From a virus, in the IMG/VR virus record IMGVR_UViG_3300025824_000001, positions 1-34,370 of that record: a DNA stretch of 34,370 nucleotides. The stretch is one strand, 5' to 3'. The notes below the pieces were generated by a model, which worked only from the letters and a program-made list of their open reading frames with translations, was not told the origin of the DNA and did not search any database. The translations under genes and the position numbers were made by a program. This document shows, in pieces, positions 5,342 through 34,235 of the stretch. The first letter of the stretch is position 1. The number at the start of each line of letters is the position of its first letter.

Positions 5342-5581
5342 TTATTTTTGCAGTATTTTTTCGACTAATTCCACGCTGACATGGTACTTTGCGGCCAACT
5401 TCCCTTTTAAAATCTGCTTACCATTAGGTTCAACTTTTTGTTTATATTCTTCTTTTAACAAAATCTTTTTAGCAATATCATCCCTGATCCATCCTTTTTC
5501 AAATAACAGATCAGTTACCCTTTCCTCAATTTGAAAATTCTCTTTTAACAGTTCAGCCGATCTCTTGCGAATATCTATCAT
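5342..5581 (-). CDS. Small helical protein following the tape measure
   Basis: 79 aa, charged, predicted all-helical. The C-terminal part (KQILKGKLAAKYHVSVELVEKIL) looks like a small HTH or helical bundle. Its ATG overlaps the tape-measure stop by 4 nt, indicating translational coupling. A regulator, or a tail-assembly factor for the tape measure, is conceivable. The family is not recognised. Confidence 0.68.
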   Translation of the reverse strand: MIDIRKRSAELLKENFQIEERVTDLLFEKGWIRDDIAKKILLKEEYKQKVEPNGKQILKGKLAAKYHVSVELVEKILQK

Positions 5582-7992
5582 AATTTCTCAGATGTGTTGA
5601 TTATCTCTAATTCCTTCAATCCTGAATTAACCTTATTCAAATTAAGCTCGACAATTATTTTTTTGGCTGTTATATCTGTGAACCTGTCAAAATCAATATT
5701 TACTGCCGGTTGTCCTGATTGCATAACCGGAGGTGTAGTGCCTATATAACCACCTGCTACATATCCCGGCACACCTATATTACGCATGACTCTTGGACCA
5801 CCAAGCATCGCCACATGCTTATCGGTCAAAACTGTCTCGGTCTTATTTGCAAGAATGAGTGTGTCATCTTTTTTACCGGTATTGACATGAACTCCGTCGG
5901 TGATCTTACCACCACCTTTATATTTGGGCAATGGCTGTGCTGCTATCAGTGCTGTTTGAATAGCACCCATGCCGATAACCCACGGAATAAGTAACGGTTT
6001 ACTAAGCGTTTTAATTACATTTTTTGCAGTATCAATAATAGATTCAAAGATTGCTTGTCGTTTATTGGACTGATCTTCTTTATGCATTAACTGCTTTTTC
6101 TTATCCTGATATGCTTTATCTATTTTTGCCTTTTGTTCTTCATTATCTTCGGCTGCCTTTATGTCTGCATTATACTGAGTTTCGAGTGCCGAAAATTGCT
6201 TATCATATTTTCGTTTGGTATATTGTCCCCAGATATTAATTAATCCTTTTGTTGTTTCGTCAGCCATTTGCCATTGTAAGTTTTTCTTTTCATCCTCAAT
6301 TTCCTTCCACTCATCATAACCTCTATTCCATTCCTCAATTTCTTTATCAACTTGTTCTTCAATTATTTTCAGTTCAGCATCTGCCTGTTCTTGTCCAAAA
6401 TCAAGTAATTCTTTTCCCTGACTTTTTCTATTGTTAATTTCATCCTTAAAAACAACATATCTTGCTTTACTGGCTTTTTCTTCTATGCCTTGCCTTCTCT
6501 CTTCAGCCTCAACTTCTGCTTCAAGGCGTTTAAGTTCATCTTTATTAGCCTTTTTCTTTGCAGCCTCTGCTTCTGATTTAGTTGTAGTTATTTCATCCAT
6601 TTGCTTTTGATAATCTTTACCAATAGCTATAAACTCATCTTTTAATTTCTGTACTTCTTCATTGCTATTTACCCTTGCTCTTTTTGCTGCCGCCCAATAG
6701 CCCTCGCCCATAGCAACAAAAAATTTAAACCTATCATTAAATGATATTATTTTTTTATCATCAAATAATTCATTAAGGTTTTTTGTTCCTTTTGTGCCAA
6801 TGCCAGTTACTATGGTTGTTAATCCATCAACAAAATTCTTTATTGCCCCATTTGATTCATTTATTCTTAATGTCAACCCCTCCCATGCGCTTTTTAAAAT
6901 AGTTATTGATCCCTTGACATTATCAAGCATGGTATCGGCCATTTCTTTTGAAGTGCCATCGACATCCAATAGTGAATCATTGTAATCTTTTGCAGCTTTA
7001 TTGTTTTCAGCAAGTATCAAACCTGCAACAGCACCACGTTTGCCAAATAATTCGAGAGATGTTGAAGCCCTGTTTTGTGATCCCTGGATTTTTCTCATAG
7101 CCTGATCCCATGTCAATCCCCTTTTCTCTAATTCAAGGAATATATTCCTGAGTGATGTTCCTGAAGTTGATGCATCAAGACCTGAATTAGCAAGCACAGC
7201 CAATTTACCTGTAACGCTCTCTAATGATTCTCCCACAGCGGCTCCAGTAACTCCGGCATTCTGCATAGCCGTTTCAAATTTACTCATATCAAGAGCGGAT
7301 GTTCCAAAAGCAGCGGTCATAACATCGACCACATGAGTCATCTTTGTAGAATCTAAGTTAAATTGCCGAAGTGTAGCCCCCGCTATCGTTGCAGCATAAG
7401 CAAGGTCACTACCGGTTGCAGCAGCCAGATCAAGGGTAGCTTTTGTTATTGCAAGGATCTCCGTTATAGAAAAACCAAGTTTTGCATATTCCTTTTGCAG
7501 TCCTGCAACTTCCGAGGCTGTATATTTTGTAGCACCACCGAGGGAAATAGCACTTTGACGGAGTGATTCAAATTCATCACCTGTTGATCGGGTGATAGCT
7601 TTAACGGCAGACATGGCATATTCAAAGTCCCATGAAGTCTTGAATCCGTTTTTTATGACATTGAATAAAGCTCTTGCAGCAATGGCGGCACTGGCAAATA
7701 TTCCAAGTGATGTTAGAATGGTTTTCCCAAGCCTCATGAAAGAGCTTTGTGTCGGTGTTATAGCTTTCTTTAACTGTTTTTGAAGAACTGTTTGTTCTCT
7801 TAATTCTTTATTTAATAGAGCAAGTCTGGTTGCATATTGTTTTTCAGTTATCTTTCCACTTTCATAAGTTTTTTTTAAAACTCTCTTAGCATTATTAACC
7901 TTCCCAATCGCAATCTGAACTTGCGCTAACATCTTTTCTTCATTCGAGAGACCTAATATTCTTAATCTAAAACTTAACTCTTTTTCTGCCAT
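5578..7992 (-). CDS. Tail tape measure protein, TP901 family
   Basis: 804 aa. A helical N-terminus (1-75) is followed by a hydrophobic segment at about 88-112 (LTSLGIFASAAIAARALF). A TP901-type core at about 120-350 contains recognisable family phrases such as GGATKYTASEVAGLQKEYAKL, shortened here, and SGLDASTSGTSLRNIFLELE. A long coiled coil rich in Glu/Lys spans about 460-620, and a second hydrophobic stretch near 660-690 precedes a Gly-rich C-terminus. The protein sets tail length and guides DNA passage. At about 0.15 nm per residue it predicts a tail near 120 nm, consistent with a siphovirus. Identification is secure at family level. Confidence 0.93.
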   Translation of the reverse strand: MAEKELSFRLRILGLSNEEKMLAQVQIAIGKVNNAKRVLKKTYESGKITEKQYATRLALLNKELREQTVLQKQLKKAITPTQSSFMRLGKTILTSLGIFASAAIAARALFNVIKNGFKTSWDFEYAMSAVKAITRSTGDEFESLRQSAISLGGATKYTASEVAGLQKEYAKLGFSITEILAITKATLDLAAATGSDLAYAATIAGATLRQFNLDSTKMTHVVDVMTAAFGTSALDMSKFETAMQNAGVTGAAVGESLESVTGKLAVLANSGLDASTSGTSLRNIFLELEKRGLTWDQAMRKIQGSQNRASTSLELFGKRGAVAGLILAENNKAAKDYNDSLLDVDGTSKEMADTMLDNVKGSITILKSAWEGLTLRINESNGAIKNFVDGLTTIVTGIGTKGTKNLNELFDDKKIISFNDRFKFFVAMGEGYWAAAKRARVNSNEEVQKLKDEFIAIGKDYQKQMDEITTTKSEAEAAKKKANKDELKRLEAEVEAEERRQGIEEKASKARYVVFKDEINNRKSQGKELLDFGQEQADAELKIIEEQVDKEIEEWNRGYDEWKEIEDEKKNLQWQMADETTKGLINIWGQYTKRKYDKQFSALETQYNADIKAAEDNEEQKAKIDKAYQDKKKQLMHKEDQSNKRQAIFESIIDTAKNVIKTLSKPLLIPWVIGMGAIQTALIAAQPLPKYKGGGKITDGVHVNTGKKDDTLILANKTETVLTDKHVAMLGGPRVMRNIGVPGYVAGGYIGTTPPVMQSGQPAVNIDFDRFTDITAKKIIVELNLNKVNSGLKELEIINTSEKL

Positions 7993-7996
7993 AATG

Positions 7997-8509
7997 TCAC
8001 TCTTTTATCATATATATAAGCCCGTTCATTGCTGCCTGGGGGATCCCTTTCTCAGGCAAGAGGTCTTCGGTTACCATATGCGGCTCGAACTCACTTTTTT
8101 CTTCAAGAAATTGGTTGTATTTCTCTACCTGGGCATCCCTCTCTGTAATGTCATTTTTATATTTGTTCTTGAGTTTTTCGAGATCATTAGCAAACGGGGA
8201 TCCCGGAGCGGACCCACCCTCCAGGGCATAGTTTTCGATGGGACCCTCAATGCTATTCACAATCTTTGTAATAGGCCGGTCCTTATCATCCCGCACCGCA
8301 TGTTGCTGGAGAAGCTTAGTTTTCTCATCCTGAAACATTCCATAACCTTCAGAATGTTTCAGGATGGCTTTTATATCCTTTACGAGTTCCGAAAGCTTTC
8401 TTTTATTCTTAGCCACTGCGTAGCTAAGCCTCACGTGCAATATAGCAGGATTGACCTCATCCATTAATGAGAGGGCATCCAGCATTTCGAGACATTCACG
8501 GTTAGTCAT
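7997..8509 (-). CDS. Tail-assembly-region protein (DUF1617-like)
   Basis: 170 aa, mostly helical and charged, located directly before the tape measure with a 4-nt gap. The start MTNRECLEMLDALSLMDEV and the YAVAKNKRKLSELVKDIK block recall small proteins of the DUF1617 type that lie next to tape-measure genes. That match is from memory and should be checked with a profile search. A chaperone or assembly role for the tail is inferred from position. No catalytic motif is visible. Confidence 0.72.
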   Translation of the reverse strand: MTNRECLEMLDALSLMDEVNPAILHVRLSYAVAKNKRKLSELVKDIKAILKHSEGYGMFQDEKTKLLQQHAVRDDKDRPITKIVNSIEGPIENYALEGGSAPGSPFANDLEKLKNKYKNDITERDAQVEKYNQFLEEKSEFEPHMVTEDLLPEKGIPQAAMNGLIYMIKE

Positions 8510-8521
8510 GGTTCTTCTGCT

Positions 8522-8689
8522 TTACAGTTTGTTATTTATTTCAGGCTTGCCGTTCTGGACAGGCTTTGTCGAGCCTCCTCCGGAAGTCTTGTTAGAATTG
8601 TTTTTTCTCTTTTTTACAGTTGCTATAATACCTACAGCAACTATGGCCGAAAATATGGCCCCTAAAATAAAAGCTGTTAATCCGTTCAT
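8522..8689 (-). CDS. 55-aa single-span membrane protein
   Basis: Short ORF filling the gap between its neighbours: ATG at 8687-8689, TAA at 8522-8524. Residues 4-24 are a strong hydrophobic helix (LTAFILGAIFSAIVAVGIIA). It is followed by a basic cluster (VKKRKN) and a polar Gly/Ser/Asn/Lys tail, so topology is predicted N-out, C-in. It starts 4 nt after the 77-aa gene and ends 12 nt before the next, as expected for a real operon member. It could be a small holin-like or tail-assembly membrane protein. Function unknown. Confidence 0.65.
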   Translation of the reverse strand: MNGLTAFILGAIFSAIVAVGIIATVKKRKNNSNKTSGGGSTKPVQNGKPEINNKL

Positions 8690-8693
8690 AGTT

Positions 8694-8927
8694 TTATTCT
8701 TTAGTTTGGTTAATAATATTTTCTATTGCCTCAATCATGTCATTGATATCGGCGAGTTTCTCTTCATATAGGGCCTTGTCTGCATTTAGCTGGTCCAGGG
8801 TATAAAGGCCCAGGGAAACCTTTACTGAAACATCCTTATCTTCAATATCCTTCATCTCTTTTACCTCAAATAGCTCGTAATGCTCTTCGAGGTCTTTGTC
8901 CGTTGGTTTTGTTGCTATTATGTTCAT
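8694..8927 (-). CDS. Small coiled-coil protein
   Basis: 77 aa, very acidic, with a C-terminal coiled coil (about 45-77: LNADKALYEEKLADINDMI). It is separated by one base from the BACON gene upstream. It may be an assembly partner for the fibre/BACON proteins or for the tail. Not recognised at family level. Confidence 0.68.
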   Translation of the reverse strand: MNIIATKPTDKDLEEHYELFEVKEMKDIEDKDVSVKVSLGLYTLDQLNADKALYEEKLADINDMIEAIENIINQTKE

Positions 8928-8928
8928 C

Positions 8929-9267
8929 TTATACTGGATTTGCTAATTGGTTAATTGTCACTATTACATCGTCGCAATCCGGGGAGCTGAACGTTACCGT
9001 TCCCTGCCTGAGTGACCCTGTATCATTTACGGCTACATGGATACTTACAGATGCATTATCCCCCGGGCTTGATGCGCCTGTTACTAAAAGCCAGGCATCA
9101 TCTTCATTATAGCTCCATTCCTGAGTTTCACATCCTACATCCACCGAAACCACGCAAGTATCCCCGTTGTAATCAACGTTGTTAAAAAGCGTGGGGTTTA
9201 CCGATAAATAAACCGGTATCGTCCTCTCAAAATTCAATCCGTGATGTACTAAAAGTGCTCGTCTCAT
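8929..9267 (-). CDS. Stand-alone BACON-like domain protein
   Basis: 112 aa, essentially one beta-sandwich domain. The pattern fits BACON domains: an aromatic strand (TQEWSYN), DDAWLLVTGAS, then SVSIHVAVNDTGSLRQGTVTF and a terminal VIVTINQLA in which the Gln is typical. BACON domains are proposed to bind glycans or mucin and occur in Bacteroidetes enzymes and in crAss-like phage tail proteins. Here the domain is a separate protein, 2 nt from the tail-fibre gene stop, so it probably decorates or caps the fibre. There is no signal peptide. The glycan-binding role is family-based inference. Confidence 0.75.
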   Translation of the reverse strand: MRRALLVHHGLNFERTIPVYLSVNPTLFNNVDYNGDTCVVSVDVGCETQEWSYNEDDAWLLVTGASSPGDNASVSIHVAVNDTGSLRQGTVTFSSPDCDDVIVTINQLANPV

Positions 9268-9269
9268 CT

Positions 9270-11873
9270 TTAACTCGGTGATAAGTAGTTATTTCCGTAG
9301 CTCCAGTATAAATTAGTTCCATCGCTTACGAAAGTCAATATATTAATCACATTTGCTGATTCATCAAGTGTCAGCAGCCCTCCGTCGATGACCTTATTAT
9401 ATGTCGGGCTGGCAAAACTTAGTGTATGTCCTCCTGAGGCATCCTGGATAACAATAAGACATCCGCTGGTCCCGTTGTCTGCATTTGTTATTGTCAGGGA
9501 GCAATCTCCGGTAAGTGTTATTTTGGCATTATAGCCATTGTCAATGTCCCAAGTCTTGCTTGCAGCATAGGTCAATGTCTGGAATGCTGTGAAAACATCT
9601 CCTTTGCTGATCCATGAGCCGTCACCCTGTAATACCTTGCTTGTTGCTCCAGAACTATTAAGCTCCAGATACAGCGAAGCACCACGCTTGAATTGTAAGG
9701 CATTTCCACTTTCGGCTATTGTCCAATTTGTAGTCGCATAACTTCCTCCCAATATTTGTCCACTTGCCGAAACATAACCTATATTTTGTAAATTAAATAC
9801 TGCATCCGAACCGCTTGTATCCCTTGTAGCAAAATTCAACCACCCTGATTTTGCTTTATTGAGTAAATAAGTGCTCCCTTTTAAATATAATGTAGTTCCT
9901 ATTTCTACATAACTTAATGTAGAGATATGATCACTTGCCGAAACATAACCTATATTTTGTAAATTAAATACTGCATCCGAACCGCTTGTATCCCTTGTAG
10001 CAAAAGGCAACCACCCTGATATTGCTTTATTGAGTAAATAAGTGCTCCCTCTTAAATATAATGTAGTTCCTATTTCTACATAACTTAATGTAGAGATATG
10101 ATCACCCACATTTATCACTCCATTAACTGTTATCCCGGTGTTTATTGCTGTCACCTTTGCAGATCCTGAATAATGTAAAGAAGTATGTTCATGACCGTCC
10201 AGTGAAACCTCACTATAAGAGAATCCAGCAGATATAAACCCTCCACCGGCTGTCTGCTTTAACATATCGCCGGTTGAGCCACCGGTGGCTGTAGGTGCAT
10301 AAGTATTTGTATCGAGAGCCCAGGTATTAGCTGCTGTTTTCTTCAGGAAGGATGTTGCTGTAAAGCCCAGGGCAGCTATTGCAGTAAGGTCGGCATCCAG
10401 GGGCTGATAGGATGTACTTGATAGTGCAAATGTCCCGGGAGCTGTCATCGTTACTATAGGAGCTCCTGATGACCAGGCCAGAGCCGAAATACCATCTAGG
10501 TTAACATCATATTCTTGGTAAGCTGTAGTATCCAATGCCCAGGTGTTGGCTGCAGTTTTCTTTAAAAAGGCAAGGTTAGTAAAACCAAGACCGGCTATAC
10601 TGGCAAGATCAGCATCGAGCCTGGAATTACTGAGTGTACCCGATGTTATTTCTGCTGCGGAATGTTCATGTCCATCAAGCGACACCTCGCTATAAGAGAA
10701 CCCCGCAGATATAAACCCTCCACCGGCTGTCTGCTTTAACATATCCCCGGTGGATCCACCTGTGGCTGTGGGTGCATAAGTATTTGTATCGAGAGCCCAG
10801 GTATTGGCTGCCGTCTTTTTAAGGAATGAAGTTGCTGTATATCCAAGAGCAGCTATGGCCGTAAGATCGGCATCCAAAGGCTGATAGGATGTACTCGATA
10901 GTGCAAATGTCCCGGGAGCTGTCATCTTTACAAAAGGTGTCCCGGAGGACCAGTTAAGATCAGTAATCCCATCCAGTATGATATCATATTCCTGGTAAGC
11001 TGTAGTATCCAATGCCCAGGTGTTGGTTGCTGTTTTCTTTAAAAAGGCAAGGGCAGTAAAACCAAGCCCGGCTATACTTGCCAGGTCTGCATCAAGCCTG
11101 GAATTACTGAGTGTACCGGATGTTATGTCAGCTGCAGAATGCTCATGTCCATCCAGTGAAACCTCACTATATGAAAATCCAGCCGAGATAAGCTGGCCAT
11201 CTGCCGTCAGTTTTAATATATCTCCTTCGCTGCCACCAGTTATGATTCCCAGGTATGTATTCGTATCTAAAGCCCAGGTATTAGCTGCTGTTTTCTTCAG
11301 GAAGGATGTTGCTGTAAAGCCCAGGGCAGCTATGGCCGTAAGATCGGCATCCAAAGGCTGATAGGATGTACTCGATAGTGCAAATGTCCCGGGAGCTGTC
11401 ATCTTTACAAAAGGTGTCCCGGAGGACCAGTTAAGATCAGTAATCCCATCCAGTATGATATCATATTCCTGGTAAGCTGTAGTATCCAATGCCCAGGTGT
11501 TGGCTGCAGTTTTCTTCAGGAAGGATATTGCTGTGAATCCCAGGGCTGCTATGGCTGTCAGGTCGGTATCTATAGGCTGAAAATCGGCAGGCTTATATGA
11601 ACTTGTGTTTAATCCACCCACGGCATTCATCAACGGGATATTTCCATTGACCGGAGATGTGATAAGAGGTACATATGTATCAGTATGTAAATGATCTGCT
11701 GTAGCAAAATAGGTTGCTTCATGACCATCCAGCAGATCTGCATCCAGACCACTGCCAGCACCATCAACAAGAAGTAATCCTTCAAGAATATCTGCTGCCG
11801 GTCCACTTGCTGTGAATGGTTGCCAGGATTTTCTACCCGCATCATCGCTTGTATAGTAGTGTCTTACACTCAT
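9270..11873 (-). CDS. Repeat-built tail fibre / receptor-binding protein
   Basis: 867 aa. After an N-terminal ~95-aa part (MSVRHYYTSDDAGRKSWQPF) comes a shaft of about three long repeats. They are built from alternating modules: LTAIAALGFTATSFLKK / NTWALDT / FALSSTSYQPL and SAADITSGTLSNSRLDADL. Next are two nearly identical 57-aa repeats (residues about 590-705, YVEIGTTLYL...). The protein ends in a C-terminal beta domain of about 100 aa (TWDIDNGYNAKITLTGDCS...) that looks like the receptor-binding tip. Thr/Ala/Ser/Leu richness and tandem repetition are typical of trimeric fibres. The start overlaps the upstream tail-tip gene by 4 nt. Repeats probably vary shaft length. Confidence 0.85.
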   Translation of the reverse strand: MSVRHYYTSDDAGRKSWQPFTASGPAADILEGLLLVDGAGSGLDADLLDGHEATYFATADHLHTDTYVPLITSPVNGNIPLMNAVGGLNTSSYKPADFQPIDTDLTAIAALGFTAISFLKKTAANTWALDTTAYQEYDIILDGITDLNWSSGTPFVKMTAPGTFALSSTSYQPLDADLTAIAALGFTATSFLKKTAANTWALDTNTYLGIITGGSEGDILKLTADGQLISAGFSYSEVSLDGHEHSAADITSGTLSNSRLDADLASIAGLGFTALAFLKKTATNTWALDTTAYQEYDIILDGITDLNWSSGTPFVKMTAPGTFALSSTSYQPLDADLTAIAALGYTATSFLKKTAANTWALDTNTYAPTATGGSTGDMLKQTAGGGFISAGFSYSEVSLDGHEHSAAEITSGTLSNSRLDADLASIAGLGFTNLAFLKKTAANTWALDTTAYQEYDVNLDGISALAWSSGAPIVTMTAPGTFALSSTSYQPLDADLTAIAALGFTATSFLKKTAANTWALDTNTYAPTATGGSTGDMLKQTAGGGFISAGFSYSEVSLDGHEHTSLHYSGSAKVTAINTGITVNGVINVGDHISTLSYVEIGTTLYLRGSTYLLNKAISGWLPFATRDTSGSDAVFNLQNIGYVSASDHISTLSYVEIGTTLYLKGSTYLLNKAKSGWLNFATRDTSGSDAVFNLQNIGYVSASGQILGGSYATTNWTIAESGNALQFKRGASLYLELNSSGATSKVLQGDGSWISKGDVFTAFQTLTYAASKTWDIDNGYNAKITLTGDCSLTITNADNGTSGCLIVIQDASGGHTLSFASPTYNKVIDGGLLTLDESANVINILTFVSDGTNLYWSYGNNYLSPS
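9761..10102 (-). repeat. 171-bp tandem duplication inside the fibre gene
   Basis: Two head-to-tail copies, 9761-9931 and 9932-10102, differ at only a few positions. They encode 57-aa repeats differing at roughly three residues (R/K, I/K, P/N). The unit length is a multiple of three, so copy loss or gain keeps the frame. Confidence 0.85.
10185..11590 (-). repeat. Long imperfect tandem repeats of the fibre shaft
   Basis: About three copies of a ~150-codon unit with long identical DNA tracts, for example the LTAIAAL and DGHEHSAA segments at about 10200-10640, 10660-11120 and 11140-11590. Copies differ mostly by scattered silent and conservative changes, suggesting duplication or gene conversion. 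Confidence 0.75.
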
Positions 11874-13858
11874 TGCTTCAATACCATTTCTAATTCAGCC
11901 GTAATACCATCAGTAGTAACACGTTGCAAAATAAAATAATTCATTATTCCATCTATCTCAATACTATAAGTAGGTCTAAATCCTTCGCTGGCTGCCGTAT
12001 CGACCACAGTAAAAAACTGATTTAAAAAGCCGGGAGTTAATTTTATCCTGACAGTATATATCTTTCCCTTATCGACATAGTGATAATGTTTGATCCAGTA
12101 ATCGTTGTATATATCCGAAAAGTCAAGTGCATCAATCTTCGGATAGGTGCTTTTAGTAGCACTCTCAAAATACCATGTAAAACCCGCTGTCAATCCTTTC
12201 CATTCGACTATCCTGGTCTTGAAATCTGCCAGACGGTCAAAAATACTACCATAAGGATATACAGGCAGTTCTTTCCAGATGGTAGGTGCCTCAGTAGTAT
12301 AATTATTAATCGTGTAATTATATCCTTTGAGTATTGTTGCAAACTCACAAGTCTTATATGTTATGTCCTGCTCTGCAAACAGGCTCGTTAATGTTATCTC
12401 TTTCTGTCCGGGCAGGTCTGTATTCTCTTTCAGGTATTCGGCAAAGGACTGATCCTTATCATCACTTGAAAAACGCATGATGATAGTTTCGTTATAATTT
12501 TTTGATATAAGCTCTGCCGGGAAATCCGAATTATCAACATAATCCGTTAAATCGACAACGGTACCGGAGACAAAATCATCCCAGGGCTCTATATACAGGT
12601 TTTGTTTTGATTTGTCGAGCCAGAATTTAAGATTGAAAATACTCTTTATCACTGAGAGAAAATCCAACTGTGTCATATCCGGCAACATCTCTTCAAAGCT
12701 GATCGTTGCTCCATTGCCTATATAGCGGTTGGCACTGCCCCATACATTCTCAAAATATGAGCTGATAGCCGTATATAATGTTATTGTCTGTGATCCCGCC
12801 GTTACTGTGCCAATGACCCTTGTATATGACTCTATGGTTATCGAATCACCAGCCTCACAATATATATAACCTGTATCAAGCTCTGCTGTCACACCATCTA
12901 TGAGTTCATCAACACCATAAGCCCCTGCATCAAAACTCGCTTTAGATGTCCCATTGCGGTTAATATCTATCTCAAAATCTTCATCCGTTATAGTTACCGA
13001 TCCATTGCCATAACCGGTGTTTACCATTGTCACCGATGCACGGAATCGATATGTGCCCGTTGTTGGTACGGTATAGGTATCTGTTAACCAGTCTTCTCCT
13101 TCATCTGTTGACTCGTTAGAGAATTCCAGGTCTTTAATAATATCGACCATAAAGGCACCCGATTCGGTAGCAGTATCATAATTATCCGTAGTGGCATCGA
13201 CATAAGTGAGCAAGTCCTTTTCTTCAATAAAATCCTTATCAGCTATTTTCTGATTACAAAGGATAAACAAGTCCTTAATAAATGACTCTGCGATCCATGA
13301 TGATACTATCGTATATGGCTCAAGAATCTTATTTATAAGTGTTACAATGCTTATCATTGGAATAAAGTCACTTGTTATCCAGTTAGCGGATCCACCTGTC
13401 TCGCCACTTGCCAGCCCACCAAAATATATCATCGGGTAACGATATGCCGGATATGAAGCACTCCAGCTTGTCACTATATTCGTACCATTGAATTCATGGT
13501 CGTGCGTTGACAAGTCAAGTGCTGTCATCTTCTTGTCTTTCAGATTATCGAGCCATGTATCTGACTTGATTATTATTTTGGCATAATTATCATTATAATC
13601 CAGTACTTTCACCGTACCGGATATGACAAGCATCTCACCGAGATATAACCTGCCTGTATCACTGGGCTCACTTGTTACATCTGCCTGGTTGATGAATTTG
13701 AGAAGTTTCTTATTTGTCTTTGTAAGCGGGAGATTTAGTGTATAGGATTTATTATTATTGCCAAGCTTATCATTTCGTATGTCACCGATAGAAAATACCA
13801 CATTAAAAGCCTCATTAAAGTCTGCCAGTTCAGTCCCCATATATAATTTAGTCTTCAT
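11870..13858 (-). CDS. Large tail-tip / baseplate-like protein
   Basis: 662 aa. The N-terminus (KTKLYMGTELADFNEAF... and LPLTKTNKKLLKFINQA) resembles a group of large tail proteins common in Bacteroidetes siphoviruses. The middle, about 240-380, is beta-rich with Thr/Asp/Gly (TGTYRFRASVTMV), probably a carbohydrate-binding-like insertion. The C-terminal half contains a LDFLSVIKSIFNLKFWLDK segment of the kind seen in tail-hub proteins. It overlaps the upstream gene by 11 nt and the fibre gene by 4 nt. A hub or connector between tail tip and fibre is inferred from gene order. No enzymatic motif was seen. Confidence 0.75.
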   Translation of the reverse strand: MKTKLYMGTELADFNEAFNVVFSIGDIRNDKLGNNNKSYTLNLPLTKTNKKLLKFINQADVTSEPSDTGRLYLGEMLVISGTVKVLDYNDNYAKIIIKSDTWLDNLKDKKMTALDLSTHDHEFNGTNIVTSWSASYPAYRYPMIYFGGLASGETGGSANWITSDFIPMISIVTLINKILEPYTIVSSWIAESFIKDLFILCNQKIADKDFIEEKDLLTYVDATTDNYDTATESGAFMVDIIKDLEFSNESTDEGEDWLTDTYTVPTTGTYRFRASVTMVNTGYGNGSVTITDEDFEIDINRNGTSKASFDAGAYGVDELIDGVTAELDTGYIYCEAGDSITIESYTRVIGTVTAGSQTITLYTAISSYFENVWGSANRYIGNGATISFEEMLPDMTQLDFLSVIKSIFNLKFWLDKSKQNLYIEPWDDFVSGTVVDLTDYVDNSDFPAELISKNYNETIIMRFSSDDKDQSFAEYLKENTDLPGQKEITLTSLFAEQDITYKTCEFATILKGYNYTINNYTTEAPTIWKELPVYPYGSIFDRLADFKTRIVEWKGLTAGFTWYFESATKSTYPKIDALDFSDIYNDYWIKHYHYVDKGKIYTVRIKLTPGFLNQFFTVVDTAASEGFRPTYSIEIDGIMNYFILQRVTTDGITAELEMVLKQ

Positions 13859-14918
13859 ATTCTATCTCTATCTCATTAACAAACATCTCCGAATCTTCTA
13901 TTTTCACAGGGTCACTTATAATTGATACCTCTGTGGGTGCAGCATAACTCGCTTCCAGTTTCCTCACATCCATGCTATCCGATAGGCTTTTTAGATATGT
14001 AGTATTACTGATGTCATTAAAGCGTGTTTGTAATTTCTGCCTATTGGATCCTGATACATTGAGTAGTCTGTTTGCCTTACCTGATGTCTTGTAATATTTC
14101 CTGTCTGTTAGATATGATATGTCTTTTTTGCCCTCGAAGGCAAGGTATTCCTTACCGCCTACCAACCCGTCAAACTCAAGTACTTCACGGGCATCATTCT
14201 CGGTTGCATCGATATATATGGTCATAACCTCGGTGATCTTATCCCCGCCAACCTCGCCAAGCTGTATTCTCAGATCGCTTGTTACACTTGCCATGAGTTC
14301 CCCGATATTAACAATTATAACACCCCATTTATCAGTAAGATCGAAATGTGTGGCATGGTCATAAGCCCCGCTATCTTTTGAATAAAATAGCTCTATATGG
14401 ACAACCTCTGAAAAGAATACTATCCAATATTCCAATGGTACGGCTGTATAAAACTTCGTTATATTATTTCTAAGTGTCTTACAGGCAAAAAAACATGTCG
14501 AGTCATGACAGACATATTCCGTGAATGCATTAGCATCACCTACTGCCGGGACAAAACTATACGTAGTACCTGAAGCATTATCCGTGTCTCCCGTTGTTGT
14601 AGTACCATCTGCATCTTCCCATACCTCGGTAAATAGTATTGTATAAGCCACTAAAGGACTACCACCTGATACTTTATATAAATCTCCCGAGTCCCTTGCA
14701 ATACTAAGCCCCGTAACATTTGCTTTTAATATATCGAAAAAGTCAAAATCTGATAATCCTTTAGGCTTTTCACTTGTCGCCACAACAACCGCAGATACCG
14801 TTATATCAGCCCTGACCCTCAGGTTTACATGATCGGCATCTTCGGAAAGAGACGTAACGATATTAAATAAACCACTATTATCAATATTCTCTGGATATAT
14901 GTTTAATGTTAATGACAT
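13848..14918 (-). CDS. Tail-tip-associated structural protein
   Basis: 356 aa, beta-rich in the first 240 residues (Thr/Val/Asp/Gly). A more conserved-looking C-terminal region follows: KYYKTSGKANRLLNVSGS, then a helical stretch containing SLSDSMDVRK. Its start overlaps the end of the GIY-YIG endonuclease gene by 10 nt. Before that gene inserted, it probably followed the 15679-16221 neck gene directly. The neighbouring tail genes suggest a baseplate/tail-tip role. No specific family is claimed. Confidence 0.7.
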   Translation of the reverse strand: MSLTLNIYPENIDNSGLFNIVTSLSEDADHVNLRVRADITVSAVVVATSEKPKGLSDFDFFDILKANVTGLSIARDSGDLYKVSGGSPLVAYTILFTEVWEDADGTTTTGDTDNASGTTYSFVPAVGDANAFTEYVCHDSTCFFACKTLRNNITKFYTAVPLEYWIVFFSEVVHIELFYSKDSGAYDHATHFDLTDKWGVIIVNIGELMASVTSDLRIQLGEVGGDKITEVMTIYIDATENDAREVLEFDGLVGGKEYLAFEGKKDISYLTDRKYYKTSGKANRLLNVSGSNRQKLQTRFNDISNTTYLKSLSDSMDVRKLEASYAAPTEVSIISDPVKIEDSEMFVNEIEIEYED

Positions 14919-15673
14919 TTAATATTTTTTAGAGAATTACTTATTTTAAGTTTTATTTCTTCTGGACACGGTATTCCTTTATTCCATGCAGTTGGATGTT
15001 TGCCAAACATAGGATGCCTTTCCTTAGTATTATACATTCTTTTTTTTGCATCACTCATTTTCTTCCTTGATTCCTCTGACATCGTCTTGCCCTTATTCGG
15101 CGAAACATGACCTTTTTTACTTTCACTTATCTTTCGTTTTGTTTCTTCCGAACACGAAATACCCTTATTCCATGCAATTCTTGTTTTCCCTTTATTGGCT
15201 TCTGATATTTTTCTTCGTGTCTCTTCAGAACAAATTCTTCCTTTCATATTTTGTTTAGCCCGTTCACTAAGTTTGCGACCTTTAATAGATTCACTTAATC
15301 TTTGTTTTGATTCTTCTGACCAAATATAACCCTTGTGAGATTCACTTAATTTCATTTTGGTTTCATCTGATGCTTTTACACCTAAGCTATTGCCTGCTGT
15401 TTTACAAATATTAAAATAAGGATTAAGTACATCAATATAAAATTGCTCATAAACAATCAAATTTTCTTTCGAACAACCGACTATTATTGAAAAGACTAAA
15501 TCTAATTCACCATATTTATTAAAATGATTTTGAAGCTTCTGATTAGCATGATTGTTATTTCTTAAACCAAATAAATGCTCTCTTCTTCTCCGCTTACAAT
15601 CGATAGCACTCCCAACATAAATTCTTTCAGGCTTTATTTTTGATTGTATTTTATATATTCCACTAATTTTCAT
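14909..15673 (-). CDS. GIY-YIG homing endonuclease with NUMOD3 repeats
   Basis: About 254 aa from the ATG at 15671-15673 (MKISGIYKI). The upstream start option at 15706 overlaps the preceding gene and is less likely. The catalytic GIY-YIG domain has GIY at residues 5-7, YVG at 19-21, an Arg cluster at 28-31 and the catalytic Glu in YEQFYID (E76). The C-terminal ~150 residues hold about seven NUMOD3-like DNA-binding repeats of the form SEETRRKISEANKGK, some with an AWNKGI insert. It makes a double-strand break in DNA lacking the element, promoting its own spread. It lies free-standing between two neck/tail genes. A decayed relative sits at 16679-16867. Confidence 0.9.
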   Translation of the reverse strand: MKISGIYKIQSKIKPERIYVGSAIDCKRRRREHLFGLRNNNHANQKLQNHFNKYGELDLVFSIIVGCSKENLIVYEQFYIDVLNPYFNICKTAGNSLGVKASDETKMKLSESHKGYIWSEESKQRLSESIKGRKLSERAKQNMKGRICSEETRRKISEANKGKTRIAWNKGISCSEETKRKISESKKGHVSPNKGKTMSEESRKKMSDAKKRMYNTKERHPMFGKHPTAWNKGIPCPEEIKLKISNSLKNIKCH

Positions 15674-15678
15674 ATATA

Positions 15679-16221
15679 TTAATTCTTTGAAAGCTCTACC
15701 TGCCACTTTGCAAGTAACGCATCTATATTTATTGATATATAATTATTTGTTAGTTCTCTTACCGTTATAGTCAGTTTATCTTCACCTCTGCGAAGTGCCT
15801 CCTCAACCCATCCAGTGCGTTTTCCCGTACTTGAATAACGATAGCTCCCCGGTGTAGGCATACCTGATTTCTTCTGTGTATTGGCAATGGCAAAGGCTAC
15901 ACCAAGGGATTCCTTCTCATCGAGTCCCATGCGTAGTTGTGCATACCTTTGTAATGCCTGTATGTACTTGCTGGTACCGCCCCGCCCTGATCGTCCTGAA
16001 TAGGGTATATTACCAGGTTTAACACCCCGTGCAATGATATTGCCGTAAAAGGGCATATAACCCGATAGGATAACTTCATTTACAGTTTGAGTGACACGGT
16101 AATCTATCTCCCGAACAACTGCACCATTAATAGAATGACCTTGTGCTTCCCATTCTTCAAGAAGTGCCTCGTTGAGAATAGCTTGTAACCGATCTATACC
16201 TGTAAAAGTTAATTGTTCCAT
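15679..16221 (-). CDS. Neck / head-tail joining protein (HK97 gp10-like)
   Basis: About 180 aa from the ATG at 16219-16221, which shares its A with the TGA of the preceding gene (TGATG); an ATG three codons earlier at 16230 is also possible. The middle contains a Gly-rich basic section (GNIPYSGRSGRGGTSKYIQ) and an alpha segment (LGVAFAIANTQKKSG). TGWVEEALRRGEDKL and strands follow. Size and position after the tail-terminator-like gene match head-tail joining proteins of the HK97 gp10 group. Assignment rests on context and overall pattern. Confidence 0.62.
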   Translation of the reverse strand: MEQLTFTGIDRLQAILNEALLEEWEAQGHSINGAVVREIDYRVTQTVNEVILSGYMPFYGNIIARGVKPGNIPYSGRSGRGGTSKYIQALQRYAQLRMGLDEKESLGVAFAIANTQKKSGMPTPGSYRYSSTGKRTGWVEEALRRGEDKLTITVRELTNNYISINIDALLAKWQVELSKN

Positions 16222-16649
16222 CAGCACCACATTTTTATTTGAATCTCCGGATACATGACACCCAGCTCCGTATCTGCGGATCGTTCCCCCTCATGCAGGT
16301 AAACACCCTTCAGATCATCAATATTGAGTACCCGGATACAGTCTGTATCATTCATCTTATTGATATATGTATCAAAATAACCCTCTATAGTATCCCATAG
16401 AGTGATCTTATTCTGTGTATTGGGATCATAATTGATAACAACAAAAGCGGTCAGGGTAAGGATTTTGGTTTTCTGTATTGTTGTGCTACGGTGGTCTTTC
16501 TTGAAACTAGCCCCGTCAATAGCCCATAGTACAAAAGGATAGGTTTTCTCCCTCTGGTTATTGAAATAGAGATCATAGTCGAATATAACATCCGCAATAG
16601 ATGTCCCGGTTTTAATTATTAATTTTGTCTTTAACGCCGCTAATGTCAT
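16221..16649 (-). CDS. Tail terminator / tail completion-like protein
   Basis: 142 aa. It has the pattern of gp17/tail-terminator proteins: an N-terminal helix (LAALKTKLIIKTG), a YPFVLW strand, then alternating strands and a helix (WDTIEGYFDTYINKMN). The strand YPEIQIKMW is at the end. Such proteins form a hexameric ring that stops tail-tube growth and joins the tail to the head. It follows the decayed endonuclease and the chaperone-like gene and is coupled to the next gene by a one-base stop/start overlap. Confidence 0.6.
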   Translation of the reverse strand: MTLAALKTKLIIKTGTSIADVIFDYDLYFNNQREKTYPFVLWAIDGASFKKDHRSTTIQKTKILTLTAFVVINYDPNTQNKITLWDTIEGYFDTYINKMNDTDCIRVLNIDDLKGVYLHEGERSADTELGVMYPEIQIKMWC

Positions 16650-16678: not shown

Positions 16679-16867
16679 TTATTTTCTGAAGAAATATTCA
16701 TCTTTCCCATATTTATTATAATGATTTTACAATTTAAGTGAATGATGAGTATTTTTTCTTAATTGTTCAAAATGAGTATTTTTCCTCTTATTTATATTTG
16801 TAGAACTACCAATATAAATACGATTTGGTTTAACCTTACTTTGAATCTTATAAATACCAGTTGTCAT
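16679..16867 (-). pseudogene. Decayed GIY-YIG homing endonuclease fragment
   Basis: Reading from the ATG at 16865-16867, the minus strand encodes MTTGIYKIQSKVKPNRIYIG and continues KRKNTHFEQLRKN. It then reaches LKL, an in-frame TAA, and resumes NHYNKYGKDEYFFRK before a second TAA at 16679-16681. This matches the first ~55 residues of the intact endonuclease at 15673 (GIYKIQSK, IY-G, KLQNH-NKYG). The first stop replaces the expected Gln codon (CAA to TAA). The catalytic Glu region and all NUMOD3 repeats are missing. Its ATG overlaps the stop of the -1 frame extension of the upstream gene. Confidence 0.85.
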
Positions 16868-17113
16868 TATTCCTTTATATTACTTGTTCTACAAAACGAA
16901 ACGTAATGAAAAAAATCGTATAATTTGATATTTTTTACTTTCTCTAATGTTCCAAGTCCTCCATAACCAGTGGCCTCATACAAAAGTCCAAAACTGCCAA
17001 ACTTTTGTAAGTTCGGACCAACTTTGTTAGCTCGTTTATCTGTTTTGGGAGACTGCCAAATAATTGGATGCTCTTTGTAGAGTCTGGCAACCGCTGAAGA
17101 GTGTAAAAAAAAA
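16867..17113 (-). CDS. -1 frame extension of the chaperone-like gene
   Basis: Open in the -1 frame relative to the 283-aa gene, from its nine-T run to a TAA at 16867-16869. The 79-residue extension reads ARLYKEHPIIWQSPKTDKR, then KFGSFGLLYEATGYGGLG, TLEKVKNIKLYDFFHYVSF. This composition and the small-protein phrase FGxxGxLYE...LYDFF look more like real coding than the frame-0 tail over the same DNA. It would be made by -1 slippage on T TTT TTT (17106-17112), giving a fused product of about 309 aa. An indel that truncated an originally continuous gene would look the same. Confidence 0.6.
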
Positions 17114-17795
17114 CACTCCAAACTACTGACATAGGTGCTTTCATAAACAATTTCTGCCGTTTCAATACTCTTTTCTCATTGTATTTTTCCCATCCCTTCC
17201 GACAATATATCCCCATGAACATTGCAAGATTGCGAAGATTACCCCTTGACATATGCACACCCCGAAATATCTCTGATGCTTCAAGGTAACTTATTGCAGG
17301 TTCATTCCTTAGTGGTATGTCCTGACCCATGATATTAACAACTTCCGGCAGATAGAATCTTCTCAGTCTCAAACGAAATGATCTCCCGATAAACGGCTCA
17401 TAGCTCCTGATCTGTCCCATGATATGTATTAGAGGCTCATGAAGAAGCAGCGACAGGACGAATGGTTTAAAGTAATATTCGTACAGCTCCCGGATATTGT
17501 CTGGTGTCAGCTCACTGATTTTCTCTTCCGGTATGTTTGTCAATGTCTTAATGACCTTACGGAAGTAATCAGGAAATGTCTTTTCAAGTTCTTCGGTTGT
17601 CAATCCTGAGACAAAATCGATATATGAATTAATGTTTTCCTTATCATCGGGATTGTATTTACTGTCGATTATTACAAACTCTTCGTACCTGGGAGGTATT
17701 TCAATATCGGCAAGATCACAAAAGCGTTTCAGGGTCATATCATTCCAACTGTAAACACCCCTGTATTTTCGCTTTCCTATCTCTATTTTTATCAT
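16944..17795 (-). CDS. Tail assembly chaperone-like protein, frame-0 product
   Basis: 283 aa. It opens MIKIEIGKRKYRGVYSWND then MTLKRFCDLADIEIP, the kind of N-terminus seen in tail assembly chaperones. A helical body follows, and a GIYCRKGWEKYNEKRV motif lies near residue 195. Up to residue 230 the protein looks coherent; the last 53 residues after the T run are frame-0 sequence overlapping a more protein-like -1 frame. Chaperones of this class (lambda G/GT type) commonly make a long form by -1 frameshifting and coat the tape measure during tail assembly. The gene overlaps the preceding 65-aa gene by 4 nt. Confidence 0.65.
   Translation of the reverse strand: MIKIEIGKRKYRGVYSWNDMTLKRFCDLADIEIPPRYEEFVIIDSKYNPDDKENINSYIDFVSGLTTEELEKTFPDYFRKVIKTLTNIPEEKISELTPDNIRELYEYYFKPFVLSLLLHEPLIHIMGQIRSYEPFIGRSFRLRLRRFYLPEVVNIMGQDIPLRNEPAISYLEASEIFRGVHMSRGNLRNLAMFMGIYCRKGWEKYNEKRVLKRQKLFMKAPMSVVWSVFFYTLQRLPDSTKSIQLFGSLPKQINELTKLVRTYKSLAVLDFCMRPLVMEDLEH
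17105..17113 (-). other. Candidate -1 ribosomal frameshift site (T9 run)
   Basis: Nine Ts on the minus strand supply a T TTT TTT heptamer in the correct register (frame-0 codons TTT TTT at 17106-17111). The run forms the loop of a 6-bp inverted repeat GAGTGT/ACACTC (17099-17118). Codons after slippage are TTA CAC TCT. No strong downstream stimulatory stem was identified. Confidence 0.5.
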
Positions 17796-17989
17796 CTCAG
17801 CAGTCTTTCAAAGTGGTTTATAAATGTCTTCAGATCGTTACGTAATGCGTAAAAATGCATGTATGGCCGTCTTTTTTCTTTTGCAAAAACCTCCAGATCC
17901 TGCAATTTCTTCATTACTTCCTCTGTGTCGTCAATTATCCCTTCTCCCCGTTGCCTTATCTGCTTATTTATTGACAACCGCACTTCCAT
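17792..17989 (-). CDS. Small charged helical protein of the connector region
   Basis: 65 aa, highly charged and helical (IRQRGEGIIDDTEEVMKKL, then FYALRNDLKTFINHFERLL). It lies one base after the 113-aa gene and overlaps the chaperone-like gene by 4 nt. It probably belongs to the head-tail connection or tail assembly set. Not recognised. Confidence 0.65.
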   Translation of the reverse strand: MEVRLSINKQIRQRGEGIIDDTEEVMKKLQDLEVFAKEKRRPYMHFYALRNDLKTFINHFERLLR

Positions 17990-32754: not shown

Positions 32755-32946
32755 TTACAGATGTAAATTAAACCATTCACTTTTAGTAATCTTATGCCCA
32801 TATAAATAAGGCCAAATAACTTTTACGGCTTCCTTGATTTGATCTCTGTCCTTATTAGTTATACCAGTTGAAATGCCAAGTCCAACTCCATTATGGAATC
32901 CTATTGCTCCATTCATCAATATTTTAATAGCTTCTTTCTTTTTCAT
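32755..32946 (-). CDS. Small hypothetical protein beside the TnpB element
   Basis: 63 aa from the ATG at 32944-32946 (MKKKEAIKILMNGAIGFHNG). An upstream in-frame extension to 33006 runs through the transposon's left-end hairpin and is rejected. The short protein contains a Gly-rich section (GVGLGISTGITNKD) and ends with WPYLYGHKITKSEW. The transposable element ends very near its start, so its original promoter or leader may be disrupted. Confidence 0.6.
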   Translation of the reverse strand: MKKKEAIKILMNGAIGFHNGVGLGISTGITNKDRDQIKEAVKVIWPYLYGHKITKSEWFNLHL

Positions 32947-32963
32947 AAAATTGGAGCAGGAAA

Positions 32964-32989
32964 CCCACTGATGCCGAAGGCTCGGTGGG
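32964..32989. repeat. Left-end hairpin of the TnpB element
   Basis: CCCACTGA pairs with TCGGTGGG (8 bp with one G-T); an inner GCC-GAA-GGC stem follows a bulged T. It fits the subterminal hairpin of IS200/IS605 elements. A second short GC-rich motif follows (GCGGCTGCC). Confidence 0.65.
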
Positions 32990-33062
32990 AGGAATGCGGC
33001 TGCCACGCTTTAAATTGTTTGACAAAATTAGTAATTATTTTCTGATATGTGAAATTATTTAG

Positions 33063-33070
33063 TATATTTG
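33063..33070 (+). promoter_or_regulatory. Promoter -7 box (TATATTTG) of tnpB
   Basis: TATATTTG matches the Bacteroidetes -7 consensus TAnnTTTG exactly. It lies only 5 nt before the tnpB ATG, so transcription would begin at or very near the start codon, giving a leaderless or almost leaderless mRNA. No TTTG -33 box at the usual 19-21 bp; a TTTG occurs at 33018-33021. Confidence 0.4.
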
Positions 33071-33074
33071 CACT

Positions 33075-34235
33075 ATGAAGTTGACTTTGAAAGTGAAACT
33101 TTTGCCTACTGACGAACAGGCTAACTTGCTTCTCGATACGATGAAGGAGGCTAATATTGTTTGCAATGCCATTTCTGATGTGGCTTGGGAAAAGCGTATT
33201 TTCAATAATTTTAAACTCCATTACGAAATGTATCACGCTTTCAAGGCTAAATTCAAACTTTCCTCTCAAATTCTTGTACGTTGTATTGCTAAGGTTGCTG
33301 ATGCCTACAAACTTGATAAGAAGGTTAAAAGGAAATTTAGACCGCTCGGAAGTATTGGTTATGATAGTAGGATTATGACCTACAAACCTAATGACATTGT
33401 TTCTCTCTGGGCTATTGGTGGAAGAATTAAAATACCTTTTGTTTGCCATAATCGAAACTATTTGCCTTATATTAAAGGTGAAGCGGATTTGGTTTACAAA
33501 AAAGGCAAATTTTACCTTTTTCAAACTGTGGATATTCCAGAAGAAGATATAAAAGATATTGAGGAATTTATCGGTATTGATTTTGGTTTGACAACTTTGG
33601 TTGCAACTTCTGACGGTATTAACCATTCTGCCGAGTGGCTTAATAGTTATCGTGAACATCGGCAAACGGTTCGTAGTTCTATTCAGGCAAAGGCAGACAC
33701 TTCTAAGCGTTCCACTAAAAGGAATTGCAGAAATTTGTCTAAACGGCTTTCTGGCAAGGAAAGAACAACGGCTAATTTGATTAACCATACAATAAGTAAA
33801 TCTATTGTAGCATCTGCAAAAGAACAAGGCAAAGGTATTTCTATTGAAGACCTTACTAATATTAGGTTCACTTCTAAACGGAGAAATAAAAAGTTTAGAA
33901 CAAAACTTGGTAAATGGAATTTTGCAGATTTGAGGGCAAAACTTGAATACAAGGCTTTGCTCAATGGAGTTAAACTTGTTGTGGTTAATCCTGCTTATAG
34001 TTCGCAGACTTGCTGTGAATGTAAACATATTGGCAAACGAACCAACAAAGTGTTTAAATGCACAAACACAAACTGTAAGGTAGATAACATAGATGCGGAT
34101 TATAACGCTTCTAAAGTTATCTCTTTGCTTGGGCAGACCGTAAATTCTGCTGAAAAATCGAATGATATGTGTTGCTCTATTGCTCACGTTTATTCAGGTT
34201 TAAAGCCCATCCCATCGCTTTGCGTGGGTGGGTAG
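33075..34235 (+). CDS. tnpB: TnpB RNA-guided nuclease of an IS605/IS1341-type element
   Basis: 386 aa. Family N-terminus (MKLTLKVKLLPTDEQ) and RuvC-like residues: D169 in IGIDFGLTT, E258 in ISIEDL, D342 in NIDADYNAS. The zinc finger has C313 and C316 (CCEC) but its second pair is CTNTNC (C329, C334), with four rather than two residues between Cys. All three catalytic acidic residues are present, so it may be active. TnpB uses an RNA from the element's right end to cut DNA at sites next to a short TAM, favouring retention of the element. The ATG lies five nt after a -7-like box. Confidence 0.92.
   Translation: MKLTLKVKLLPTDEQANLLLDTMKEANIVCNAISDVAWEKRIFNNFKLHYEMYHAFKAKFKLSSQILVRCIAKVADAYKLDKKVKRKFRPLGSIGYDSRIMTYKPNDIVSLWAIGGRIKIPFVCHNRNYLPYIKGEADLVYKKGKFYLFQTVDIPEEDIKDIEEFIGIDFGLTTLVATSDGINHSAEWLNSYREHRQTVRSSIQAKADTSKRSTKRNCRNLSKRLSGKERTTANLINHTISKSIVASAKEQGKGISIEDLTNIRFTSKRRNKKFRTKLGKWNFADLRAKLEYKALLNGVKLVVVNPAYSSQTCCECKHIGKRTNKVFKCTNTNCKVDNIDADYNASKVISLLGQTVNSAEKSNDMCCSIAHVYSGLKPIPSLCVGG

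Follow-up and report, generated by a model that had tools for sequence, protein, structure and literature searches.

The locus and its gene neighbourhood

The window, meaning the whole 34,370-nt stretch of viral DNA that was analysed, carries a series of minus-strand phage genes that includes terminase, portal, an HK97-type capsid gene, a DUF6712 connector-like gene, and small neck and tail genes. Its closest cultured relatives infect Flavobacteriia: the large terminase is nearest to that of Olleya phage Harreka (56% identity over 60% of the protein), and the portal to those of Polaribacter and Flavobacterium phages (about 30% identity). Among these genes lies one with a run of nine T's (T9), at which a -1 change of reading frame would join two protein parts. 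The relevant features, from upstream to downstream, are the following:

17792..17989, minus strand: 65-aa open reading frame (ORF) immediately upstream, with an ATGA overlap with the frameshift gene
16944..17795, minus strand: frame-0 ORF of 283 aa, consisting of a 230-aa N-part up to the slip and a 53-aa frame-0 tail (supported by homologs, alignment and an AlphaFold2 model)
17105..17113, minus strand: T9 slip run, codons GTT TTT TTT TAC, invariant in 24/24 sequences
16867..17106, minus strand: -1 frame domain, 79 codons plus stop (LHSSAVARLYKEHPIIW...HYVSFCRTSNIKE), supported by its codon-position profile
16944..17105, minus strand: dual-frame stretch, covering the frame-0 tail and the first two thirds of the -1 domain
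16943 to 16867, minus strand: stretch in which the -1 frame alone is open
16690..16868, minus strand: GIY-YIG endonuclease relic, wedged exactly between the -1 stop and the following tail gene's start codon, flanked on both sides by ATGACA
16221..16649, minus strand: 142-aa gene (MTLAALKTKL...), tail-terminator-like by position only
14909-15706, minus strand: intact GIY-YIG/NUMOD3 homing-endonuclease gene, a paralogue similar to the relic, located where two other genes of this operon meet
5578..7992, minus strand: gene for the tail tape measure protein, downstream of the frameshift gene at a distance of about 9 kb

The codons at the slip are AGT GTT TTT TTT TAC, which place T_TTT_TTT in the slip register, and the -1 domain starts with the codon TTA, built on the last two T's of the run. 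The products predicted from the reading frames are 283 aa in frame 0 and 309 aa as a -1 fusion. The -1 frame ends in TAA, whose final A is also the first base of the GIY-YIG relic's ATG (TAATG). The original prediction had proposed a -1 frameshift here, and the position, length and register of the run, the open -1 frame and the TAATG junction are all borne out by the window sequence. The T9 run is the only one in the window, both strands counted. Shuffling the window gives a mean of 3.3 such runs, so a T9 alone is unremarkable at such a base composition and the case for a frameshift rests on comparison; judged from the alignments, the feature that goes beyond chance is the conservation of the run across relatives, not its mere presence.

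Elsewhere in the window, the region 5578..15000 has an unusual order, in which the tape measure gene is preceded by large tail-tip or fibre-type genes and by none that is clearly a major tail gene. A TnpB-family RNA-guided nuclease gene (33075..34235, plus strand) lies on the strand opposite to the phage genes, and a 414-codon open frame runs antisense to it (34187..32943).

Conservation of the run and of both reading frames

Relatives were gathered by six scans of viral contigs, which yielded 22 distinct contigs; with the window and the cultured Nonlabens phage P12024S these make 24 sequences, falling into 23 clusters at 90% identity, 20 at 70% and 8 at 50%. The scan patterns were peptide-based, some of them placed at the FF motif, and involved no DNA-level selection for T9. 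Nearly all relatives are metagenomic, and their run lengths depend on their assemblies. The run consists of exactly nine T's at the same codon in all 24 sequences, preceded by G or C and followed by A or G, and near-identical copies, including Nonlabens phage P12024L, also have T9. Identity in the N-part falls to 31% (12 sequences compared in detail).

Both Phe codons at the slip are TTT in 24/24. TTC is often used elsewhere in the same genes, where the share of TTT in five other Phe-rich columns is 8/20, 17/19, 9/22, 8/18 and 12/17. Unlike the surrounding codons, which vary freely (GTT/GTC/GTA/GTG five codons upstream and AGT/TCG/GCG/ACG three upstream), the slip codons show zero synonymous changes, and a replacement of Val by Leu (GTT to CTT) in P12024S and two contigs, L032 and L034, leaves the T's unchanged. 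A count over 237 kb of coding strand gave 28 T7, 0 T8, 23 T9 and 0 T10 runs, the 23 T9 runs amounting to one per contig, each at the slip site. The site is thus very probably a programmed and conserved point of frame change, as far as sequence comparison can tell. An A9 run also occurs close to the start of the frameshift gene in relative L010 (L010:9767-9775, an Asn-Lys-Lys-Lys region) and may be due to chance.

Homologs with T8, T10 or a continuous gene, named in the original prediction as evidence against it, were sought among the 24 sequences and none was found. Two scans of GTDB genomes for continuous homologs in bacteria gave no relative, a sequence search of annotated phages returned a meaningless weak match to Croceibacter phage P2559S as its sole result, and a DNA search for homologs found nothing. 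Homopolymers are error-prone, and the arrangement could stem from a sequencing or assembly error, or from a one-base deletion in a once-continuous gene. The same run length recurs in contigs of about 20 metagenomes and in two cultured phages, which makes a shared assembly error implausible and leaves this account a negligible probability. Homopolymers are also capable of switching in bacteria (PMC3711429), and replication slippage might alter the run length in the DNA and so toggle the -1 domain; such phase variation is very unlikely, given nine T's in 24/24 genomes and in near-identical pairs, with no run of 8 or 10.

The -1 domain can be aligned in all complete relatives, with the consensus LHCxAxxRLxxDYPIIWKxPK...GLIYExAGYGG...LYEFYNYLAFKR. 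Past the frame-0 stop, variation in the -1 frame is 0.45/0.31/0.60 at codon positions 1/2/3, a coding profile similar to that of the frame-0 part upstream (0.39/0.29/0.62). The -1 frame is therefore conserved in relatives with a coding-type profile, and together with the invariant T9 this supports the proposed -1 shift joining two protein parts. In the two-frame overlap the profile is flattened (0.48/0.39/0.48), which matches the expectation if both frames are constrained; the frame-0 tail, initially regarded as less convincing, is better supported than that. With the -1 peptide of the window as the only query, a viral scan gave no match; 15 loci were recovered when aligned -1 domains were used.

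In 20 of the 21 contigs for which a following ORF could be called, this ORF abuts or overlaps the -1 stop (the overlap lengths are maximum values). The spacing of genes in the operon thus agrees with the -1 end and not with the frame-0 end. In L008, L016 and L017, the homolog of the 142-aa gene begins right at the -1 stop; in the window, the GIY-YIG relic intervenes. The -1 domain might instead be a separate gene with its own start, as in the annotation of P12024S, where gp39 is called from an ATG downstream of the run, and an ATG, GTG or TTG does occur a few bases ahead of T9 in some sequences. In four relatives (L014, L016, L017 and L032), however, the -1 frame holds none of these start codons from its upstream stop to T9, which excludes an independent start there. 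Additionally, conservation begins right at the run (LH after FF), and a gene with its own start would need no T9. A separate gene is accordingly given only a very small probability.

Mechanism of the frame change

The best studied frame shifts of tail chaperones are ribosomal. For the gene in the window, a different mechanism is slightly favoured, in which a two-form virion-assembly protein would be produced through RNA-polymerase slippage on T9. The gene would yield two proteins, with most copies staying in frame 0; the frame-0 product is 283 aa in the window and about 260-290 aa in most relatives. A fraction would shift to -1 inside T9, where a conserved domain of 76 to 95 aa would replace a frame-0 tail of 25 to 57 aa. 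In this scheme RNA polymerase would stutter on T9, transcripts with ten U's would read the -1 domain, and those with eight or eleven U's would terminate quickly because the +1 frame meets a stop 1 to 27 codons after the run, usually after no more than 10. If the shift is real, polymerase slippage is the most likely way for it to occur, a judgement held with modest confidence and drawn from the sequences.

One ribosomal -1 slip and one extra U give an identical protein, so comparison proves neither mechanism. A programmed -1 slip of the ribosome on U_UUU_UUU, of the kind known from lambda G/GT, would use the homopolymer as its slip site and give the same products and function, and it is a lesser but serious possibility. 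The register is correct in every sequence, with an in-frame X_XXY_YYZ heptamer, T_TTT_TTT, in 24/24. Ribosomal -1 shifts serve tail assembly in lambda and many long-tailed phages (PMC5009743), and GeneTack work reported 6-7% shifting measured in tail-chaperone genes (PMC3711429). Against this stands the observation that U_UUU_UUU is a weak site in E. coli, less shift-prone than A_AAA_AAG (PMC5009743). In vivo, transcriptional slippage is efficient at nine A's or T's (PMC5009743). An A/T run of about nine whose length is conserved among homologs marks transcriptional slippage, which a 9T run of this kind makes very likely (PMC1088944), and the run here has nine T's in 24/24.

The eighth T is particularly informative. 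A change from T to C there would be silent in both frames (Phe TTT/TTC; Leu TTR/CTR), and the position corresponds to the free Z base of X_XXY_YYZ, yet it is T in all 24 sequences though the heptamer does not require T there. The probability of this arising by chance is about 1e-5 (56% TTT usage, 20 clusters), an approximate value that, like the other probabilities, assumes independent clusters. Ribosomes may slip more readily on UUU than on UUC, and the invariant eighth T is thus compatible with a ribosomal slip. T8 runs elsewhere on the coding strand number 0 against about 8 expected, whereas T7 runs in the ribosomal slip register show no depletion (14 versus 12 expected); potential ribosomal sites elsewhere are thus not avoided. 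The T8 deficit is partly a general codon-context bias, because T6 runs starting at codon position 2 are also depleted (3 versus 18). A further point against the polymerase reading is that the encoded residues, too, restrict the first and ninth T; most substitutions of the ninth create a stop in the -1 frame.

A stimulatory structure downstream of the slip is frequent at ribosomal -1 sites, without being obligatory. No consensus pairs were found downstream in 18 sequences, and single-sequence RNA-structure z-scores are scattered around 0, so that no conserved downstream structure supports a ribosomal slip. The 6-bp inverted repeat GAGTGT/ACACTC, pointed out earlier as possibly enclosing the run as its loop, is present in the window and missing in most relatives, whose counterparts include GACGGT-T8-ACACTC, GGTCGGT-T8-ACACTG and GGGCGGT-T8-GCACAA. 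The repeat is therefore incidental in the window, and a hairpin with the slip run as its loop was rejected.

The balance tips modestly towards RNA-polymerase slippage, given the fixed run length, the invariant eighth T, the missing RNA structure and the absence of other runs of T8 or longer. Of the lambda-like mechanism first suggested, the -1 shift stands; the ribosomal slip is one of two candidates, as RNA-polymerase slippage fits the data at least equally well.

Predicted function and comparison with known systems

The frame-0 protein was modelled with AlphaFold2 from a 13-sequence alignment (pLDDT 72, pTM 0.73), which was used in place of a poor six-sequence model. The predicted fold of the N-part comprises a beta hairpin, a helical bundle, a beta-rich insert and further helices. 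Foldseek matched the N-part model to many uncharacterised tailed-phage proteins (best probability 1.0), and a Foldseek search of the model against the PDB found nothing. Sequence comparison of the frameshift protein with Pfam, PHROG, NCBIfam and PDB gave no meaningful match and no named family. In Polaribacter phage Freya and Olleya phage Harreka, the neighbours of the tape measure gene likewise had no significant profile match with the family.

A role in tail or neck assembly, comparable to that of lambda gpG/gpGT, is nevertheless probable in view of the two-product architecture and of the genomic place, with the connector gene ahead of the gene and small tail genes behind it. The two forms would share the N-part, and the -1 domain would recruit a second partner. 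As in tail assembly chaperones, two products are predicted through a programmed change of frame near the 3' end, from the conserved slip site and the conserved -1 domain. Such chaperone genes are expected to come after the major tail gene and to have the tape measure gene as their immediate downstream neighbour; here the tape measure gene is about 9 kb and several genes away in the window and about 7 kb away in L010, and kinship in sequence or fold to a known chaperone was absent from Pfam, PHROG, NCBIfam and PDB. The distance and the absent homology point to gpG/gpGT-like working only, not to membership of the chaperone family. The earlier reading as a tail assembly chaperone is plausible in this sense, with no relative of known function in those databases behind it.

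It is also conceivable, if rather unlikely, that the frame change is real and that the gene codes for a component of the neck, connector or baseplate instead of a tail assembly chaperone. Such an assignment would suit a gene that lies about 9 kb from the tape measure gene, is placed between head-tail connector genes and small tail genes, and is unrelated to known chaperones. However, tail assembly chaperones are recognised above all by having a short and a long form, produced through a -1 shift within a virion operon, and L010 has no other candidate chaperone beside its tape measure gene.

The frame change of tail chaperones is classic ribosomal recoding in phages. It is tentatively proposed, at somewhat less than even confidence, that the gene represents a widespread unnamed virion-assembly family in which the short/long ratio is set by RNA-polymerase slippage on an invariant T9, not by ribosomal frameshifting, and in which both alternative C-terminal tails are conserved. 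If true, the same two-product logic can run at transcription. Neither tail chaperones driven by slippage nor frameshifted tail genes of flavobacterial phages turned up in the open-access literature searched. Such genes get split or truncated by annotation pipelines, and the frameshift reading accounts for a pair of annotated orphan genes in a cultured phage, in which a direct test is possible.

These are gp38 and gp39 of P12024S (NC_018271.1 23136-23830, L038), annotated as two unrelated hypothetical genes, which appear to be one frameshift gene. The run reads CTT TTT TTT TAT, with T9 in the same register; gp38 finishes in the frame-0 tail, the -1 domain includes the annotated gp39, and P12024L is alike. 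The N-part has no significant sequence match to the family, and P12024S is tied to it by fold (gp38 matches the window protein model with Foldseek probability 1.0, E 0.004), register, a weakly alignable -1 part (hhalign E 0.0014) and gene neighbourhood, two small tail-type genes following downstream as in the window. It differs from the window in its two-gene annotation, its site directly after the large terminase gene and its shorter N-part, with about 150 aa before the slip and a frame-0 product of 175 aa.

Lambda gpG/gpGT, like its analogues in long-tailed phages, resembles the window gene in pairing a short protein with a longer -1 form that has an extra domain, with the shift near the 3' end of the gene, in a virion-assembly operon where the -1 stop adjoins the next gene. 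The two have no detectable kinship in sequence or PDB fold. The lambda-type slip is a heptamer of the G_GGA_AAG type, whereas the window gene has T9. Unlike in lambda, frame 0 of the window gene and its relatives runs 25-57 codons past the slip, which gives the two forms alternative tails, and the gene is remote from the tape measure gene, with small tail genes coming after it. Genes with transcriptional slippage at nine A's or T's include Thermus thermophilus dnaX, Shigella mxiE and spa13, and IS elements. The window gene differs from these in being a phage structural gene whose slippage is a prediction, and shares with them a homopolymer of conserved length, no need for an RNA structure and a third frame that is soon closed.
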